From NCBI GenBank assembly GCA_023511915.1, contig JAIMAN010000010.1, positions 1 through 60,085 on the forward strand: 60,085 nt of DNA, read 5' to 3'. The position numbers and the translations under genes are program-made. Source of the stretch: Armatimonadota bacterium. Its GTDB lineage: Bacteria > Armatimonadota > Fimbriimonadia > Fimbriimonadales > GBS-DC. The notes beneath the pieces are model-generated. The model had not been told where the DNA came from, did not search any database, and saw only the letters and a program-made list of their open reading frames with translations. This document shows positions 11,143 through 60,085 of the stretch, one piece after another (position 1 is the stretch's first letter; every line of letters begins with the position of its first letter).

Positions 11143-11700
11143 ATGCATGCAACCGACGCCGCGTGGCTGAAACGCTTCCCCGAGCTGGAGATACTCATCG
11201 ACAGCGACACCCTCCAAGCGCGGGTACGCGAACTGGGAGAGCAGATTACGCGCGACTACGGCGCGCACCCGCCCCTGCTGGTGGGCGTGCTGAAAGGCTC
11301 GCTGGTGTTCCTGGCAGACCTGATGCGGGCGATTCCGCTGCCCGTGTCCTACGACTTCGTGGCAATCTCCAGCTACGGCGCAGAGACGCAGACCACAGGG
11401 CAAGTGCGCCTCATCAAAGACCTCGATTCGCCGATTCACGGGCGCCATGTGCTGGTGGTGGAAGACATCTACGACACGGGGCTGACGCTGAGCTATCTGC
11501 TGGGGCTGCTGCGCCAGCGCGAGCCTGCGAGCCTGCGCGTCTGCACGCTGCTTGCCAAGCCCGCACGCCGCCAAGTGGCGTTGGAGATTGCCTACTGCGG
11601 CTTCGAGATCCCCGACAGGTTCGTCGTCGGCTACGGGCTGGACTATGGTGAGCGGTATCGCAACCTGCCGTTTATTGCGGTACTGCAGGGGCAGCCGTAG
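11143..11700 (+). CDS. hpt: Hypoxanthine phosphoribosyltransferase
   Basis: 185 aa. It salvages hypoxanthine or guanine to IMP or GMP with PRPP. Visible are [20 protein letters not shown], the PRPP-binding [18 protein letters not shown] and the C-terminal [25 protein letters not shown] at 11143 is preceded by GGGAAGGA. The 3' end overlaps the convergent carB gene by 29 bases (11672-11700), so transcripts of the two genes must overlap. Confidence 0.95.
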
Positions 11701-14700
11701 GCGACACAGCGGCGTACCTGACCTGCCCAATCGGATGCACCTGCCACGCCTCGGCGTCCAACGCCCGCAGGAGCGCCCACGCGGTGTCCAGCGCGGTTAG
11801 GCACGGCACGCCCGATTCGACGGCAGCGCGGCGGATTAGCAGCCCTTGCTGTTGGGCGCGCCGTTCAGGGCTGGGCGTGTTGATCAGCAGTTGCACGCGC
11901 TTGCCCTTGATGTAATCCAGCAGGTTCGGGCTGCCCTCGCCGATTTTGGGCACGACCTGCACGGGTAAGCCCGCCGCCTGAAGCGCAGCCGCCGTGCCGC
12001 GCGTCGCCAGCAGCTGGAACCCCTTCGCAAGGAACGCCCGCGCTAACTGCACGCCCTCCGCCTTGTCTTTGTCGGCAAGCGTCAGCAGCACTGCGCCCGT
12101 GCGCGGGATTTTGATGCCCGCGGCGACCATCGCTTTGTAAAGCGCGGCTTCGTAGGTGCAGTCGATGCCCATCACCTCGCCTGTGGAGCGCATCTCGGGT
12201 CCCAGCGCGACCTCCACCTGCCGCAGTTTCAGGTGCGAGAACACGGGCGCTTTGACCGCGATTCGCCCGCGCGTGGGGTCGGGCGGCATCTCCACAAGCG
12301 GCAGGGGCTGCCCCAACTGCGCCGCGACCGCCAACCGCACCATCGGGATGTCGGTGATCTTGGACAGGTAGGGCACGGTACGGCTGGCGCGCGGGTTCAC
12401 CTCGATTACATAGACCTGCCCGTCCTGCACCACGAACTGGATGTTGAGCAGCCCGCAGGCGCGCAGCGCACGCGCCAAGCGCAGGCTGTAGTCGCGAATC
12501 TGCGCCTGCTCCGACTCAGTGAGCGTCTGCGGCGGCACGACGGTCATGCTGTCGCCCGAATGCACGCCCGCCCGCTCGATATGCTCCATAATCGCAGGGA
12601 TGAGGAACCGCTCGCCGTCGCCGATGAGGTCTACCTCCGCCTCTTTGCCCTCGATGTATTTGTCCACCAGCACGGGCGCGTCGGGGAACGCCAGCACCGC
12701 CGAGCGCCAGTAGGTCTCCAGCTCGGCGTCGGTGCGCACGATTTCCATCGCGCGCCCGCCCAGCACATACGACGGGCGTACCAGCACAGGGTAGCCGACC
12801 GCCTGCGCCGTTTCACGCGCCTCGCCCAAAGTTAGCACAGCGCGCCCTGACGGACGCGGGACGCCCAACAGCTCCAGCAGCGCATCAAACTGCCGACGGT
12901 CTTCCGCCAGCTCAATCGATTCGGGCGGTGTGCCCAGAATCGGCACGCCGAACGCTTGCAGCGACTTGACCAAGTTGATTGCCGTCTGCCCGCCGAACTG
13001 CACCAGCACGGGGATTGGCTCGCCCGAATCGCCCGCCTCGTACTCCAGCAGGTTCAGCACATCCTCCGTTGTGATGGGGTCAAAGTAGAGCGCGTCGGAG
13101 ATGTCGAAGTCAGTGGAAACGGTTTCGGGGTTGTTGTTGAGGATCATCGCGTAGTAGCCCATCTCGCGCAGGGTGCGCACGGCATGCACGGCGGAGTAGT
13201 CGAACTCGATGCCCTGCCCGATGCGGATGGGTCCCGACCCCAGCACGAGCGCCTTGCGTGGATGTTTCGGCGCAGGGCGGTCGGAGACGCCGTGATAGGT
13301 GCTGTAGAAGTAGGGCGTGCGCGCCTCGAACTCACCCGCGCAGGTGTCCACCATCTTGAAGGCGGGCACGATGCCCAGCGCCTTACGCCCTGCCCGCACC
13401 TGCGCCTCACTTAGCCCCGTGATTTGCGCCAGAAACTTGTCGCCGAATTGCCACTCTTTGGCGCGGCGAAGGAGGGTTTTGATGCCCTCACCCCTCGCCC
13501 ACCCTGTGGGAGAGGGGCTGGGGGTGAGGGCAGACACGATCTCCTCACTCCGCGCAATCAGCTCCTGCTCCATCTCCACCAGTCGGCGGATGCGATGCAG
13601 GAACCACGGGTCTACCTTGCACAATCCGTACACCTCGTCCACGAGCCAGCCGCGTCGGAACGCTTCGGCGATGTAGAACAGGCGCATGTCGTTGGGCGTG
13701 GCGATGAGCGTCTCCAGCTCCATCGGGCTGAGCCGCGCGGCGGGCGGATAGCGCAGGTCGCTCACGCCGACTTCCAGCCCACGCACCGCCTTCATCAGTG
13801 CGCCCTCGAAGGTGCGGTCAATCGCCATCACCTCGCCCGTCGCCTTCATCTGCGTGCCCAGCGTGCGGTCGCCTGTGGGGAACTTGTCGAACGGGAAGCG
13901 CGGAATCTTGACCACGCAGTAGTCCAGCGCAGGCTCGAACGCCGCCGAAGTGCCCGTGATGGGGTTGCGAATCTCGTCCAAGCGCAGCCCGATGGCGATT
14001 TTGGCGGCGATTCGCGCAATCGGGTAGCCTGTCGCTTTGGACGCCAGCGCGCTGGAACGGCTCACGCGCGGGTTGACCTCAATCACATAGTAGTCGCTGC
14101 CGTTGGGGTTCAGCGCGAGCTGCACATTGCACCCGCCCTGAATGCCCAGCGCGCGGATAATGCGCAGCGACGCCGTGCGCAACAGCTGATACTCGAAGTC
14201 GCTCAGCGTCTGCGACGGCGCAACGACCATCGAATCGCCCGTATGCACGCCCATCGGGTCTAAGTTCTCCATGTTGCACACCACGATGGCGTTGTCCGCG
14301 CCGTCGCGCATCACCTCGTACTCAATCTCCTTCCAGCCCAGCAGCGAGCGCTCTACCAAGATCTGCGAGCGCATCGACAGCTCCAGCCCCCGCGCGCCGA
14401 TTTCGAGCAGCTCGTCGGGGTTGTGCGCGATTCCGCCGCCTGTGCCGCCCAGCGTGTAGGCAGGGCGCACGATACACGGGTAGGGCGCAATCTCCGCCAC
14501 GCGCCGCAACTCGCCGATGCTTTCCACAATCCACGATTCGGGCACAGGCTCGCCGATTTGGCGCATCAGGTCGCGGAACTTCTCGCGGTCCTCCGCCGCT
14601 TGAATCGCCGTCAGGGGCGTGCCCAGCAGACGCACGCCGTACTTGTCCAGAATGCCGCGCACCGCCAGCTCCGTCGCGAGGTTCAGTCCTGTCTGCCCCC

Positions 14701-14971
14701 CAAGCGTCGGCAGTAGCCCGTCGGGACGCTCCTGCGCAATCACACGCTCGGCGAACTCTACGGTCAGCGGCTCGATATACACGCGGTCGGCGGTGTCGGG
14801 GTCGGTCATGATGGTGGCGGGATTGGAGTTGATTAGCACGACTTCCAGCCCTTCTTCGCGAAGGGAACGACACGCCTGCGAACCAGAGTAGTCAAACTCG
14901 GCGGCTTGCCCGATGACAATCGGACCTGAGCCAATCACCAAAACCTTCCGTAGCGATGTGTCTTTCGGCAT
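11672..14971 (-). CDS. carB: Carbamoyl-phosphate synthase large subunit with repeat insertion
   Basis: 1099 aa. It makes carbamoyl phosphate from bicarbonate, ATP and ammonia delivered by CarA, for arginine and pyrimidine synthesis. Both ATP-grasp halves are complete: [21 protein letters not shown] near residue 10 and [19 protein letters not shown] near 570, followed by the allosteric MGS-like domain ([16 protein letters not shown]). The start is ATG 14971 with GGAGGAGATT upstream; a longer in-frame version is not supported. Residues about 481-496 ([16 protein letters not shown]) have no counterpart in E. coli CarB and are encoded by a 48-bp palindromic repeat. carA is not adjacent. Confidence 0.96.
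13484..13531 (-). repeat. 48-bp palindromic repeat inserted in frame in carB
   Basis: The ends GCCCTCACCC and GGGTGAGGGC are a perfect 10-bp inverted repeat, with a second, inner pair (CTCGCCCAC/GTGGGAGAG). The element is exactly 16 codons long and reads [16 protein letters not shown] in carB. A close copy, nearly identical over about 40 bases, is intergenic at 48920-48960. This shows the element is dispersed and was inserted without breaking the frame. Confidence 0.85.
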
Positions 14972-15020
14972 AATCTCCTCCCTTGTCGCCTCGCTGGACG
15001 GACTTAAAGGGTCAGCCTGC

Positions 15021-15026
15021 AGTATA
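15021..15026 (-). promoter_or_regulatory. carB promoter -10
   Basis: TATACT on the minus strand, preceded by GGG, 49 bases upstream of the carB start. No convincing -35. The leader has a strong ribosome-binding site; I see no terminator-antiterminator structure. Confidence 0.5.
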
Positions 15027-15137
15027 CCCAAAGGGTATTGCCTTCGGCTGTTTGTGGGCAAGTTTTCATGAAAAACCTGCACGATTAGCGAGGGGCTGGC
15101 GCGTTTCGGGGTATCCTAACTGCGGGGTGCGTTCGAG

Positions 15138-46639: not shown

Positions 46640-46670
46640 TACCGACCTCGCCAGCAGAGTTCATCGTTGC

Positions 46671-46766
46671 CCCCCTCCTTCAGGTTCCCCCCGCTTCGCG
46701 AGGGGAACCGCGAGAGGCGCGCCTACTCGGTTCCCCCTGCGTGCATGGGGAACCTTAAGGAGGGGG
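46671..46766. repeat. 96-bp nested palindromic element
   Basis: A 20-bp outer inverted repeat (46671-46690 and 46747-46766, 19 of 20 matching) encloses two smaller hairpins with GGTTCCCC/GGGGAACC arms (46683-46709 and 46729-46754). It lies between the convergent TPR and E2 genes. The structure suggests a small non-autonomous mobile repeat or an unusually complex bidirectional terminator. Confidence 0.7.
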
Positions 46767-47970: not shown

Positions 47971-47994
47971 AGTGTACCCGTTTTCGGGTATAGT
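47971..47994. promoter_or_regulatory. Divergent promoters between E2 and the DUF2092-like gene
   Basis: TACACT on the minus strand (47971-47976, preceded by GGG) serves the E2 gene. TATAGT on the plus strand (47989-47994, preceded by GGG) serves the gene starting at 48017. Confidence 0.5.
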
Positions 47995-48016
47995 TCAGTA
48001 TACGGAGACGAGAACG

Positions 48017-48805
48017 ATGCGAACTCTATGGATGGCAGTGGTGATTGTGGCAGCGACGGCGGTCGGCTTTGCGCAGCAGGATGCGAAAGCGTTCCTCAAG
48101 CAGGTGCAGCAGAAGTACCGCAACGCGAAGTCGTGGGAAATCAGTATCGACATCTCTGCCGAGCTGAACTTCGGCGGCAACTCGCAGAAGCAGCAGTCCA
48201 GCTCGACGATTGCGATGCAGCGTCCGAATCGCGTCGCGGCGAAGGTGGGCGCGAGCGGTTTCAGCCCCGCGCGCGAGGTCTACTCCGACGGCAAGACGGT
48301 CTTTGTGTATGTGCCCAGCGCGAAGCAATACATGAAGCAGCCTGCGCCGTCTGACCTCAAGGGCGCGAACGCGGGGCTGCTGGGCGAGGCGGGCATGCTG
48401 ATGGGCATCGCCGAGCAAGATTTAGACCAGCTGGGTCCGAATGCCAAGATTCAGTTTCGCGGCACGCAGACCGTCGGGGGCAAACAGACGCGAATTGTGG
48501 AAATCACCGACACACAGGGCAACGCCTCAGTTAACTTGAAGCTCTTCATCGGCGCGCAAGATCGCCTGATTTACCGCGTGGAGCTGAACCAGACCGCGCG
48601 TCCGCAGCAGGGCGGTCAAGGCGGCGGTCAGGCGCAGCCGCAGTCGTCGATGAAGGTGGTCGCCACGATGCGCTACATCAGCTTCGATAAGCCCATTCCC
48701 GCGTCGCGATTCCGCTTCACTCCGCCCAAAGACGCGAAGGAGATTCAACCGCCCCAGCAGGGTCAGCCGATGACCCCGCCGCAACCGCCTAGGCGCGGGC
48801 GGTAA
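48017..48805 (+). CDS. Periplasmic DUF2092/LolA-like protein
   Basis: 262 aa with signal peptide (TLWMAVVIVAATAVGFAQ). The body matches the LolA-like DUF2092 fold: KAFLKQVQQKYRNAKSWEISIDISAELNF, a MQRPNRVAAKV strand, and REVYSDGKTVFVYVPSAKQYMKQPAP. A Gln/Gly/Pro-rich insert (about 203-217) and a Pro-rich end are low complexity. Members bind hydrophobic ligands or lipoproteins; the actual ligand is unknown. ATG 48017 is chosen because it begins the signal peptide; longer in-frame starts precede the promoter. Confidence 0.78.
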   Translation: MRTLWMAVVIVAATAVGFAQQDAKAFLKQVQQKYRNAKSWEISIDISAELNFGGNSQKQQSSSTIAMQRPNRVAAKVGASGFSPAREVYSDGKTVFVYVPSAKQYMKQPAPSDLKGANAGLLGEAGMLMGIAEQDLDQLGPNAKIQFRGTQTVGGKQTRIVEITDTQGNASVNLKLFIGAQDRLIYRVELNQTARPQQGGQGGGQAQPQSSMKVVATMRYISFDKPIPASRFRFTPPKDAKEIQPPQQGQPMTPPQPPRRGR

Positions 48806-48838
48806 TCAGTGCCCAAGCGTTGAGAGGTTGCGCCCCAA

Positions 48839-48860
48839 CCCTCCCCGCCTGCGGGGAGGG
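48839..48860. repeat. Short palindrome, family A
   Basis: CCCTCCCCGC (48839-48848) and GCGGGGAGGG (48851-48860). A similar palindrome is at 57963-57986, so this is a repeated element. It is first in the gene-free stretch 48806-49180, which is almost entirely palindromes. Confidence 0.65.
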
Positions 48861-48919
48861 ACTTCCCTGACGAGGGTACATCGCTTGAGTTCGCTGTGTG
48901 CAGGGATCGCACGCTTTTT

Positions 48920-48960
48920 GCCCTCACCCCCAGCCCCTCTCCCACAGCGTGGGAGAGGGG
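48920..48960. repeat. Palindromic repeat, second copy of the carB element
   Basis: Shares GCCCTCACCCCCAGCC and CTCTCCCACAG, then GTGGGAGAGGGG, with the reverse complement of the element inside carB (13484-13531). It has lost the outer right arm. A degenerate third copy may lie at 49041-49062. Confidence 0.7.
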
Positions 48961-48980
48961 AGCCGCGCGCAGACCTATTT

Positions 48981-49032
48981 GGAGTGCTGAAGCGTCAGCT
49001 TCAGCGTGGGCGGAAGCTTCGCTTCCGCACTC
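48981..49032. repeat. Composite 52-bp palindrome
   Basis: Outer arms GGAGTGC (48981-48987) and GCACTCC (49026-49032) enclose two hairpins, TGAAGC/GCTTCA and GGAAGC/GCTTCC. It forms a cruciform-like composite unit in the 48806-49180 gap. Confidence 0.6.
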
Positions 49033-49064
49033 CACATCCCCCCTCGCCCACGCTGTCGGCAAGG

Positions 49065-49089
49065 GGTGTAGGGGCGCACGGCGGTGCGC
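49065..49089 (+). repeat. 25-bp dispersed repeat, copy 1
   Basis: GTGTAGGGGCGCACGGCGG followed by TGCGCC, containing GGCGCAC/GTGCGCC. It recurs with one mismatch at 60061-60085. Confidence 0.65.
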
Positions 49090-49094
49090 CCTGA

Positions 49095-49132
49095 TGCGCG
49101 TTCTCCCCCGCCCGCCTGCGGGGGAGAACGCG
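49095..49132. repeat. Perfect 16-bp stem palindrome
   Basis: GCGCGTTCTCCCCCGC (49095-49110) and its exact reverse complement (49117-49132), 6-base loop. It lies 48 bases before the Tricorn gene start and would form a very stable hairpin in its leader if transcription begins upstream. Confidence 0.65.
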
Positions 49133-49180
49133 CAGTCGGTATTACAGGAACACACGCCGCTTTGGGGAATCTAACGCAGT

Positions 49181-52100
49181 ATGCTTATGAATCGCGTTGT
49201 TGGTGTGCTGTTCGGTCTCTGTGGAGTGTTGCTGATTGCCTTCGCGCAGTTGCCCGCGCCTGCCCCGCAGCCGATTGTCGGCGCGCGGATGCCCGCGCTT
49301 AGCCCCGACGGTAGTCAGATTGCGTTTGTGTATCGCGGCGATATTTGGGTCGCGCCCAGCGCGGGCGGTCGCGCGATGCCCATCACGCGCCATGTCGCCT
49401 ACGACGCCTACCCGCTCTGGTCGCCCGACGGCAAGTGGCTCGCGTTCGGCAGCGTGCGCAACGGCAACTGGGATGTGTTTGCGATTCCCGTTGAGGGCGG
49501 CGCGCCCGTGCAACTGACCTTCCACGCGCAGGCGGAAATCCCCAGCAGCTGGAGCCGCGACGGACGGTTCCTCTACTACAGCGCGTCCTACGACTCGAAC
49601 AACCCCGCGCTTATCGAGCTGGAGGTCGCCACAGGCAGGTTCCGCCGTGTGGTGGAGGACTATGTGTCGCTGTCGGGACCGCAGATCGCGCCCGACGGCA
49701 AGACGCTGGCGTATGGGCGGTACGGCTTCCCGTGGTGGCGTCCGCGCTACACAGGCTCCGCCGCGATGCAGGTGTGGCTGTACGACATGCAATCGGGCGC
49801 GCGGCGTGCGCTTACCCGCGATGCGAATCAGCACCTGTGGACGCAGTGGCTGCCCGACGGGCGCACGCTGCTGACCGTGACCATCGGCGAGAAGACGCCC
49901 GACTCGCCGCGCTTGGGCGAGCGGCTGCCCGTGTTCCAAGACAACGCGCGGCGCACGCCCAACCTGTGGACGATTGACCTCAACGGGCGCAAGCGGCAGC
50001 TCACGCAGTTCGTGGGTGGGGCGGTGCGCTTCCCGACCGTCGCCGCCAACACGGGCGACATCGCCTTCGAGTACGAGGGACACCTGTACCTGCTCAAGGC
50101 GGGTCAACGCCAGCCCCAGAAACTCAGCTTCGTCGCCGCGCAGGACGACGCGCAGACCACCCGCCAGCGCGAACTGCTTGCCAGCGGCGTCGAAGAAGCC
50201 GAACCCTCCCCCGACGGCAAACAGTACGCCTTCCGCATCCGCGGCGACATCTGGCTTATTGACATCGAGAAGCCGAAAGCGACGCCTGACAAGCGCAACG
50301 CCGAGTTCGCCCGCCAACTCACTGACTGGGTGGGCGACGACTCCGACTTCGTGTGGGCAAAGGACGGCAAGACGCTCTACTTCACCTCCGACCGCAACTA
50401 TCACCAGCAGCTCTACGCGCTGGATGTGGCGACGCTGCAGGTGCGGCGGCTGTTTGACCGCCCCGCCGATGTGTCGCGCCTGAAGCGTTCGCCCGACGGC
50501 AAGCAGTTGGGCTTCTGGGTCTCTGGCTCGGATGGCGGGCTGTTCGTGCTGAACTTGGAGACGGGCGAGGCGAGGAAGGTGCTGCACGAGCCAGGCACGC
50601 ACTGGTACGGGCTGGGCGGGGGCGATTTCGCGTGGTCGCCCGATATGCGCTGGCTGTGCGTGCAGCGGCGCGCCCCCTACGGCGCGTGGAACCTGTGGAT
50701 CCTGCCCGCCGACGGCAGCGGCGAACCCGTCAACATCACGCGCCAGAACGCCTTCCACAACCAGCCCGCATGGTCAGCCGACGGCAAGTACCTCTACTTT
50801 TTCAGCACCCGCGCGGGCAACGCCCTGTACGCCATTCCGCTCACGCGCGAGACCGCCCGCCGCGACGACAAGGACATCCAGTTCGAAAAGCCCAAAGACG
50901 ACCAGCCGCTGGAGGTGCGCATCGACTTCGAGGACATCGACCGCCGCATCCGCCGCTGGAACGCGCAGCCCCCGCAGGGCGACCTGACAGCCGCCAGCGA
51001 CGGCAAGATTTACTACCTCTCGGAGGGCGACATCTGGCAGGTCGCTTATGACGGCAGCGAGAGTAGGCGGCTCACCACAGGCGGCGGGCACGGCGCGCTG
51101 CGCGTCTCGACGGACGCCAAACGGCTCTATTACATCCGCAACGGGGAGCTGTATGTGATGCGCTTGGACGCCAACAACCGCGTCGACAAGGTGGAGTTCA
51201 AGGCGGACTACGAGTTCGACGCGCAGGCGCAGCGCGCGGCGGCGTTCGTGCAGTTCTGGCGGGCGTATGAGCGCGGGTTCTACGACCCGTCGTTTCACGG
51301 GCGCGACTGGGCGGCAGTTCGCGAGCGGTATCGCCCCTTGCTGGCGGGCGTCGGCGTGCCCGAGGAGTTCGGGATCGTGCTGTCGATGATGGTCGGCGAG
51401 TTGGAAGGCTCGCACACGGAGGTCTCCCCGCGCTCCAGCGCGACCACGCGCAGTCCCAGCACGCCGCATCTCGGGTTCACCATCGACTACAGCCATCGCG
51501 GACTCGGACTGAAGGTCGCCGCCGTGCCCGAAGGCTCGCCCGCGTCGTTCCCCGAAACGCGCATTCAGCCTGGCGAGTATGTGCTGAAAATCAACGGCGA
51601 ACCCGTACAGGCGAACCAGAAGCTCTGGCAACTCATCAACGACAAGGGCGACCGCACCTTCGAGTTTCTGGTGAACAGCGCGCCTGTGGAAGAGGGCGCG
51701 CGCACCGTGCGCTACAAGCCGCTCAGCGGCGGCGAGTGGAGCGAGCTGCACTACCAGAACCGCGTTAACCGCCTGCGCAGGCTCGTCGAGGAGCGCACGA
51801 ACGGACAGGTCGGCTATGTGCATATCGCGGCGATGGGCGGCGGCGACCGCGAACGCTTCGAACGCGAGTTCTACGAGTACGCGCAGGGCAAACGAGCGAT
51901 GATCATCGATGTGCGCTTCAACGGCGGGGGCAACATCGCCGACACGCTGGTCGATTGGCTGGAGCGCAAGCCGTATGCCTACTATGTGCCGCGCGATGGG
52001 CTGCCCGCTGTCGGTCCCCCGAACGCGCTCGATATGCCTATGGTCGTGCTGATGAACGAGCGCAGCCTCTCCAACGGCGAGATGTTCCCCTACGCCATGC

Positions 52101-52360
52101 GCGCCCGCAAACTCGCCACGCTCATCGGCTGGGAGACGCCTGGGTATGTCATCTGGACTTGGGGACTGGGGCTGGTGGACGGCACGGGCGCGCGAATGCC
52201 GCAGCAAGGCGCGTACCGCATCGACGGCTCCAATATGGAAAACAACGGCGAGAAGCCCGATATTGCCGTGTGGCTCTCGCCCGAAGACTGGCTTGCCGAG
52301 CGCGACCCGCAACTGGACAAGGCGCTGGAGGTGCTGGGACGGAGGCTCGCGCAGCAGTAG
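49181..52360 (+). CDS. Tricorn protease homologue
   Basis: 1059 aa, close to the archaeal enzyme in length, with a signal peptide (VVGVLFGLCGVLLIAFAQ), so it is exported rather than cytosolic. Residues about 30-620 are two TolB-like beta-propellers (repeats such as PALSPDGSQIAFV, PLWSPDGKWLAFGS, PAWSADGKYLYFFS). A PDZ domain (about 755-850) and an S41-type core follow. Candidate catalytic residues align well with Tricorn: His in GELEGSHTEV (about 743), Ser in NERSLSNGEMF (about 964) and Glu in MENNGEKPD (about 1021). It degrades peptides, possibly feeding amino-acid catabolism. Confidence 0.9.
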   Translation: MLMNRVVGVLFGLCGVLLIAFAQLPAPAPQPIVGARMPALSPDGSQIAFVYRGDIWVAPSAGGRAMPITRHVAYDAYPLWSPDGKWLAFGSVRNGNWDVFAIPVEGGAPVQLTFHAQAEIPSSWSRDGRFLYYSASYDSNNPALIELEVATGRFRRVVEDYVSLSGPQIAPDGKTLAYGRYGFPWWRPRYTGSAAMQVWLYDMQSGARRALTRDANQHLWTQWLPDGRTLLTVTIGEKTPDSPRLGERLPVFQDNARRTPNLWTIDLNGRKRQLTQFVGGAVRFPTVAANTGDIAFEYEGHLYLLKAGQRQPQKLSFVAAQDDAQTTRQRELLASGVEEAEPSPDGKQYAFRIRGDIWLIDIEKPKATPDKRNAEFARQLTDWVGDDSDFVWAKDGKTLYFTSDRNYHQQLYALDVATLQVRRLFDRPADVSRLKRSPDGKQLGFWVSGSDGGLFVLNLETGEARKVLHEPGTHWYGLGGGDFAWSPDMRWLCVQRRAPYGAWNLWILPADGSGEPVNITRQNAFHNQPAWSADGKYLYFFSTRAGNALYAIPLTRETARRDDKDIQFEKPKDDQPLEVRIDFEDIDRRIRRWNAQPPQGDLTAASDGKIYYLSEGDIWQVAYDGSESRRLTTGGGHGALRVSTDAKRLYYIRNGELYVMRLDANNRVDKVEFKADYEFDAQAQRAAAFVQFWRAYERGFYDPSFHGRDWAAVRERYRPLLAGVGVPEEFGIVLSMMVGELEGSHTEVSPRSSATTRSPSTPHLGFTIDYSHRGLGLKVAAVPEGSPASFPETRIQPGEYVLKINGEPVQANQKLWQLINDKGDRTFEFLVNSAPVEEGARTVRYKPLSGGEWSELHYQNRVNRLRRLVEERTNGQVGYVHIAAMGGGDRERFEREFYEYAQGKRAMIIDVRFNGGGNIADTLVDWLERKPYAYYVPRDGLPAVGPPNALDMPMVVLMNERSLSNGEMFPYAMRARKLATLIGWETPGYVIWTWGLGLVDGTGARMPQQGAYRIDGSNMENNGEKPDIAVWLSPEDWLAERDPQLDKALEVLGRRLAQQ

Positions 52361-57962: not shown

Positions 57963-57992
57963 CCCCTCCCCGCTGGCGGGGAGGGGTATACT
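57963..57992 (+). promoter_or_regulatory. Palindrome fused to a leaderless promoter
   Basis: CCCCTCCCCGC (57963-57973) and GCGGGGAGGGG (57976-57986) form a perfect 11-bp palindrome. TATACT (57987-57992) begins on the next base, 6 bases before the ATG at 57999. The GG that usually precedes the -10 in this genome is supplied by the palindrome, and the -35 region lies inside it. Confidence 0.6.
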
Positions 57993-60060: not shown

Positions 60061-60085
60061 GTGTAGGGGCGCACGGCAGTGCGCC
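60061..60085 (+). repeat. 25-bp dispersed repeat, copy 2 (cut by window end)
   Basis: GTGTAGGGGCGCACGGCAG followed by TGCGCC matches 49065-49089 at 24 of 25 positions. It may extend past the window edge. Confidence 0.6.

Follow-up and report, generated by a model that had tools for sequence, protein, structure and literature searches.

An intergenic palindrome array in a Fimbriimonadales genome that resembles a truncated stack of MITE, palindrome and REPIN

The intergenic gap at 48806-49180 of the DNA analysed here (the window, a stretch of 60,085 nucleotides in all) appears to be a composite of three mobile layers, truncated on its right and fused to part of a second copy of its middle layer. 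The outer layer is an IS4-family MITE, the middle layer a double palindrome that we call BD, and the inner layer a REPIN of the RAYT encoded at G000:C111:34348. We give this reading a probability of about 0.8. The window is contig C89 of the source genome (G000; 2.73 Mb in 122 contigs), whose closest named relatives are Fimbriimonadales MAGs (Armatimonadota), the nearest being KatS3mg018 (AP024673.1; also G010 below).

Results

Hairpins in the gap

The gap separates two genes on the plus strand. The left one (47972-48805) encodes a DUF2092 periplasmic protein of 277 aa with orthologues in 14 of 17 relatives, and the right one (49181-52360) a tricorn-like S41 peptidase of 1059 aa, which shares 92% protein identity with its counterpart in KatS3mg018; the alignment with that genome starts at the leader of the peptidase gene (49146-49180, plus strand). 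A 53-56% relative of the peptidase, of the kind typical of Verrucomicrobia contigs, is carried by contigs L043, L045, L046, L059 and L062, which are titled Klebsiella pneumoniae or Akkermansia muciniphila; these titles look like placeholders.

A hairpin scan and folding bore out the richness in palindromes that an earlier note on this DNA had described. All five of its hairpins (48839, 48920, 48980, 49069 and 49095) are present, far above the Markov expectation: three stems scoring at least 9 were found in 48806-49180, whereas 200 first-order Markov versions averaged 0.07 and never had more than 1. When 48867-49134 was folded as single-stranded DNA, the energy was -93 kcal/mol, compared with -57.8 +/- 3.6 kcal/mol for 200 shuffles, none of which equalled it. 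Such strong folding (z -9.8) between two same-strand genes speaks for a selected regulatory or terminator structure of the gene pair, or a structured RNA. However, the array is absent at both genes in the sister species, and its sequences recur at tens of other, unrelated loci, which makes a selected structure very improbable. A search of six sources (129,977 bases) with Rfam at the gathering threshold returned two tRNAs only and no structured-RNA family.

From left to right, hairpin A (CCCTCCCCGC/GCGGGGAGGG, 48839-48860; 10-bp stem, loop of 2) adjoins the end of the MITE, whose left arm (48867-48919, plus strand) opens with the terminal repeat CTGACGAGGGTACATCG (48867-48883). B, the left half of BD (48920-48962, plus strand), has the head GCCCTCACCCCCAGCCCC, and its hairpin at 48920-48960 consists of a 12-bp stem (48934-48960) behind the head GCCCTCACCCCCAGCC. 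C, the REPIN (48980-49034, plus strand), follows, with its left REP at 48980-49006 and its right REP, in inverted order, at 49009-49034. At 49036-49051 (plus strand) the start of the right BD half of the first copy runs into the second copy, and the shared CCCCTCGCCCAC at 49040-49051 is the putative fusion point. The second copy contributes a degenerate B-type hairpin (49040-49066, plus strand), then E (49069-49091, plus strand; hairpin GGGCGCA..TGCGCCC), a palindrome TAGGGGCGCACGGCGGTGCGCCC that serves as an alternative filler of BD in other copies (L120 and L121), and F (49095-49134). The stem of F, earlier given as a perfect one of 16 bp, is indeed perfect but measures 17 bp, with a 6-base loop. 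Three kinds of hairpin recur within the window, as had been said: A at 57964-57985, B at 13491-13532 and E at 60064-60085. The elements had also been assigned to different families; instead, B (48934-48960), the hairpin at 49040-49066 and F are variants of a single family.

The REPIN and its RAYT

C is built of TGGAGTGCTGAAGC..GCTTCAGCG and GGCGGAAGC..GCTTCCGCACTCCA, two REP hairpins in inverted order that are dispersed as one unit. With 48980-49049 as query, at least 51 matches were obtained in the source genome (40 of 98 candidates scored); among the 21 copies printed with their flanks, B usually stands before C and the matching right half after it, and some copies show further arms outside these, those of the MITE. 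KatS3mg018 gave at least 42 matches (40 of 161 candidates scored) and G016 gave 13, mostly weak, while no match was found in the remaining 15 of the 18 genomes searched. C is abundant only in the source genome and KatS3mg018, close relatives that both carry its RAYT.

The RAYT gene (182 aa; G000:C111:34348, locus L068) has four left REPs before it and four right REPs after it. Its product passes the NCBIfam REP_Tyr_transpos model NF047646 (100.7 bits, cut-off 80), lies above the cut-off of PF01797 and matches TnpArep 4er8 (E 1.2e-6). The translation contains NHYHVIL and LNYVNNNPVRHGLV, which we take to be the HUH motif and the catalytic tyrosine of a RAYT, the places of these motifs being assumed. 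The same locus exists in KatS3mg018, with a gene 71% identical and REPs alongside. Neither C nor the RAYT occurs in 14 of the 18 genomes; in G015 a RAYT relative (41% identity) is present and C is absent, and G016, with its 13 mostly weak matches to C, lacks a close RAYT. The relative in G015 (L107, G015:C21) is flanked by other REPs, which have the same foot, TGGAG(C/T)GC, and a different palindrome. The REP foot of C is GGAG and not the canonical tetranucleotide GT[AG]G, as given in a passage of PMC6006769; the REPs of C therefore form a variant class.

The outer MITE and its transposase

The MITE ends in CTGATAAGGGTACATCG on the left and in its reverse complement on the right. Allowing at most two mismatches, TGATAAGGGTACATCG occurs 39 times in the source genome, with no occurrence of the reversed-pattern control, and 63, 46, 45 and 21 times in G009, G013, G001 and G012, respectively. 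We could pair ends with matching terminal inverted repeats into 19 MITEs of 199-390 bp from six genomes (nine from G000, three each from G013 and G001, two from G012, and one each from G007 and G009). As a group, these have a target duplication of exactly 11 bp: the mean identity of their flanks is 0.675, against 0.281 for mispaired flanks. The 11-bp flanks are exact in 5 of the 19 and identical at 9 of 11 positions or better in 7, a clear duplication being wanting in the other 12, and at every other length from 5 to 14 there was never more than one exact case. Among the nine MITEs of the source genome, L120 has the sole exact duplication and L121 matches at 9 of 11 positions.

At G000:C18 this terminal repeat stands before a transposase gene, and at G000:C73 before the start of one. 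The transposase at G000:C18 is of the IS4 type (NF033591, E 1.6e-13); its score of 50.5 stays below the cut-off of 152 because the gene is cut by the contig end. No copy of this element with both ends on one contig was seen, and relatives of the transposase that bear the same terminal repeat are present in G012 and G007. The gene in G012 has a MITE-type end on its left, and its right end, TGACAAGGGTACATCACTTGAGTTCACC, on other contigs, resembles the left arm of the MITE. KatS3mg018 has a second IS4-type element of 1438 bp, in two identical copies with 11-bp duplications. One full copy (L131; G010:C1, about 485 kb) was found inserted in a BD hairpin loop, flanked by an exact 11-bp duplication, CCCGCGCGGCG. 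Two of the checks proposed along with the landing-zone idea thus gave positive answers: a fitting REP-associated tyrosine transposase and an IS4-type transposase were both found in the genome that holds the array, and the outer MITE layer shows a target-site duplication of 11 bp.

The layers as one unit

The full stack reads, in order, a MITE arm, the GCCCTCACCCCC head with its hairpin, a spacer ending in CCTGTT, the REPIN, AATCCCC with the second hairpin, GGGGGTGAGGGC and the second MITE arm. Five complete copies of MITE, BD and C (L097, L102, L104, L118 and L125) are 277-310 bp long. We examined 46 copies of C in the source genome, a non-random sample in that the loci were chosen for holding C or the terminal repeat; the left junction was found in 27, the right junction in 39, both in 26 and at least one in 40, and motifs of B or of the right half stood at 42. 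Because at least one flanking junction is identical in 40 of the 46, we conclude that the layers travelled as one unit.

A BD or G motif lies within 40 bp of 13 of the 19 MITE insertions. In the source genome the same holds for 17.5% of 3000 intergenic positions and 5.2% of 3000 genic ones (binomial P about 1.5e-6, a rough value in that the background is that of a single genome and the MITEs are those of six). Palindromes are thus favoured landing sites, so that arrays would grow by insertion into earlier arrivals. Comparison of the two sister genomes revealed empty and occupied sites: a BD with its arms in KatS3mg018 (L086, 18245-18468) is missing in the source genome, where the flanking genes adjoin (L182, 563-583), and an element bearing C breaks the start of an ORF in KatS3mg018 (L167, G010:C1:1221700-1222800) that is uninterrupted in the source genome (L097). 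A double palindrome of the related kind G (CCCTCCTTCAGGTTCCCC..GGGGAACCTTAAGGAGGG; about 46670-46766 of the window) has no counterpart at the equivalent place in KatS3mg018, and in the gap on C24 the palindromes differ between the two genomes.

These data bear on the landing zone as first meant, in which five unrelated palindromes were inserted separately. The preference for palindromic targets (13 of 19 MITEs) agrees with that idea and is a part of it that stands; hairpin A, which lies outside the composite, and the different palindromes at G000:C24 also speak for it. However, both the left and the right part of the gap align en bloc with composite copies at other loci, and most C copies share a junction, so we consider separate insertion an unlikely account. 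From the alignments, separate landing of B, C, D, E and F seems largely refuted; that of A does not.

Carriers in sister species

The centre of the MITE varies. The nine paired MITEs of the source genome represent stages of the stack, as their centre holds BD alone (two), BD with E (two) or BD with C (five). Elsewhere it is a TGTCATTCTGAG-type repeat in G013 (3/3), G palindromes in G001 (3/3) and G012 (2/2), and BD in G007 (1/1) and G009 (1/1). We also read 20 C loci of KatS3mg018, each on both strands, and none lay inside BD. Six were between TAAGTGCCTTTGCG-type ends and four between GTCAGAGTTCG-type ends, with both ends present, compared with 0.4% and 0.03%, respectively, of random places; six others had no carrier-end match in a regex test. 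As C lies in BD in the source genome and between other terminal repeats in KatS3mg018, the carrier of this REPIN differs from one sister species to the other.

The reach of BD

Allowing a single mismatch at most, we found the BD motif CCCTCACCCCCAGCCCCTCTCCC in 69 out of 291 Armatimonadota genomes, the reversed-pattern control being 0 in the rows listed, and BD-related palindromes occur in 12 plasmid records, mostly cyanobacterial. One of these records, a plasmid of another phylum, from Cupriavidus sp. EM10 (NZ_CP076061.1), has 35 places similar to palindrome B. Within the window, a single BD-type palindrome of 48 bp (13484-13531, minus strand) lies inside an ORF of 1136 aa (11672-15082, minus strand); since 48 is divisible by three, the palindrome may be translated in frame as part of the protein. 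In G001, units of about 100 bp that resemble the G palindrome are repeated in tandem (L077, G001:C7:8969-12784), with seven BLAST matches between 729 and 1317. A text search for the letters of BD returned no bacterial repeat paper among the matches listed.

No mobiliser of BD was found. A common Y1 protein (L067 type) was considered and rejected: a Y1 match is present in 19 of 19 genomes, five of which have no BD head (G005, G011, G015, G016 and G017), and a BD head stands at just 2 of 28 Y1 loci (L184-L211), its distance from the Y1 gene being about 275 bp in one and 850 bp in the other. The Y1 transposase-like protein (L067, L186-L201 and L203), which measures roughly 250-300 aa, had a match in 18 of 18 family genomes searched, without flanking REPs of the C kind; it appears to be retained family-wide and is possibly domesticated.

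The copy in the window

Two blocks make up the array. Positions 48867-49048 align with the complete stack L104, and 49040-49127 align in the same orientation with the BD+E stacks L120 and L121, from which it follows that F, up to 49127, is the right half of a second BD. The right end of the first copy is missing; for that reason no target duplication can be read. Recombination in the shared CCCCTCGCCCAC stretch is the likeliest cause of both the fusion and the lost end.

The array is neither unique nor conserved at this place, the two findings that were to have counted against the landing-zone idea: C has its dozens of matches in the genome, and the array is missing at both genes in KatS3mg018, where these genes are 1.6 Mb apart (427 kb and 2,066 kb) with no palindromes beside either. 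Of five array loci in the source genome with comparable flanks, four are at breaks of synteny with KatS3mg018 (the window, C46, C63 and C33) and C24 is not. No palindrome lies at the partner end, C46:10715, and the two genomes show widespread loss of synteny; we therefore do not claim that arrays caused the breaks.

A metagenome assembly could also have joined two arrays inside a repeat, in which case neither the fusion nor the synteny break would be real. These repeats lie at or near the ends of many contigs in this assembly, the change of family falls inside a shared hairpin, and synteny with KatS3mg018 breaks exactly there. Against this, the longest exact stretch shared with the other sequence of the source genome that was compared, a part of the genome, is 48 bases, shorter than the usual large k-mers, and no second copy of F was found in the source-genome sequence scanned. 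We regard an assembly artefact as unlikely.

Discussion

Under the preferred reading, a truncated composite fused to part of a second BD, an IS4-type transposase would move the whole stack by its outer ends, as the terminal repeats, the duplications and the cognate IS suggest, the chemistry being presumed. The RAYT would first have put the REPIN into BD or the MITE, and thereafter the REPIN would have been copied mainly as a passenger, which the shared junctions support. Recombination between dispersed copies may then fuse and truncate them; this would account for the mixture of elements in the array, and perhaps also for its position at a break of synteny. A host function would not be needed.

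Several parts of this picture are already known: REPINs and RAYTs, IS4-type MITEs, ISs that choose REPs, and REP dimers in palindromes. IS4-family MITEs are short, with matching ends and target duplications, and have a transposase-bearing relative. The outer layer here is like them in all of these respects and differs in that its centre acts as a replaceable cargo bay, holding BD, BD with C, BD with E, G palindromes or a TGTCATTCTGAG-type repeat, depending on the genome. As in the REPINs and RAYTs described in passages of Bertels and Rainey 2011 (PMC3116915) and of the work on REPtrons (PMC6006769), two inverted REPs form one unit with tens of dispersed copies, and the same REPs flank a RAYT gene, which NCBIfam names accordingly. 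Unlike those described there, the REPs here have the foot GGAG, and nearly all examined copies are passengers in other elements.

Section 7 of PMC3733652 reports that REP dimers of A. variabilis, T. roseum and H. neapolitanus are inserted in palindromes. In that section the outer palindromes are tied to no transposase, whereas the outermost layer of the present stack is bounded by IS4-type ends, shows 11-bp duplications and has a cognate IS; an additional middle layer and carriers that differ between sister species also go beyond it. Tobes and Pareja 2006 (PMC1525189) describe IS-type elements that land preferentially in palindromic repeats (REPs). The full IS in the BD hairpin loop of KatS3mg018, with its exact 11-bp duplication, resembles those cases; unlike them, the inserted elements here are mostly MITEs that are themselves carriers of palindromes. 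In the open-access literature we found no description of a stack of REPIN, double palindrome and IS4 MITE that spreads together with carriers differing between sister species, and we consider the three-layer stack and the change of carrier unusual.

A wider proposal, which we make tentatively, is that REPINs in these genomes have largely stopped moving alone and may now travel in the middle of MITEs that unrelated DDE transposases mobilise, on carriers that differ between sister species (an IS4-type MITE with BD against at least two other terminal-repeat carriers). Their central place could be explained if a MITE palindrome were extruded and the RAYT joined REPINs into its single-stranded loop, and BD, which reaches from Armatimonadota to cyanobacterial and betaproteobacterial plasmids, might serve as a cross-phylum landing pad.

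If the stack is read correctly, palindrome-rich gaps of this kind would be explained as stacks of parasites and not as regulatory structures, and it is a warning that assemblies and gene order may break at them. The spread of REPs is still poorly understood, according to a statement in PMC8266576. REPINs riding at the centre of DDE-transposon MITEs would constitute a second route of spreading, one that can be tested through the junctions among sister genomes.
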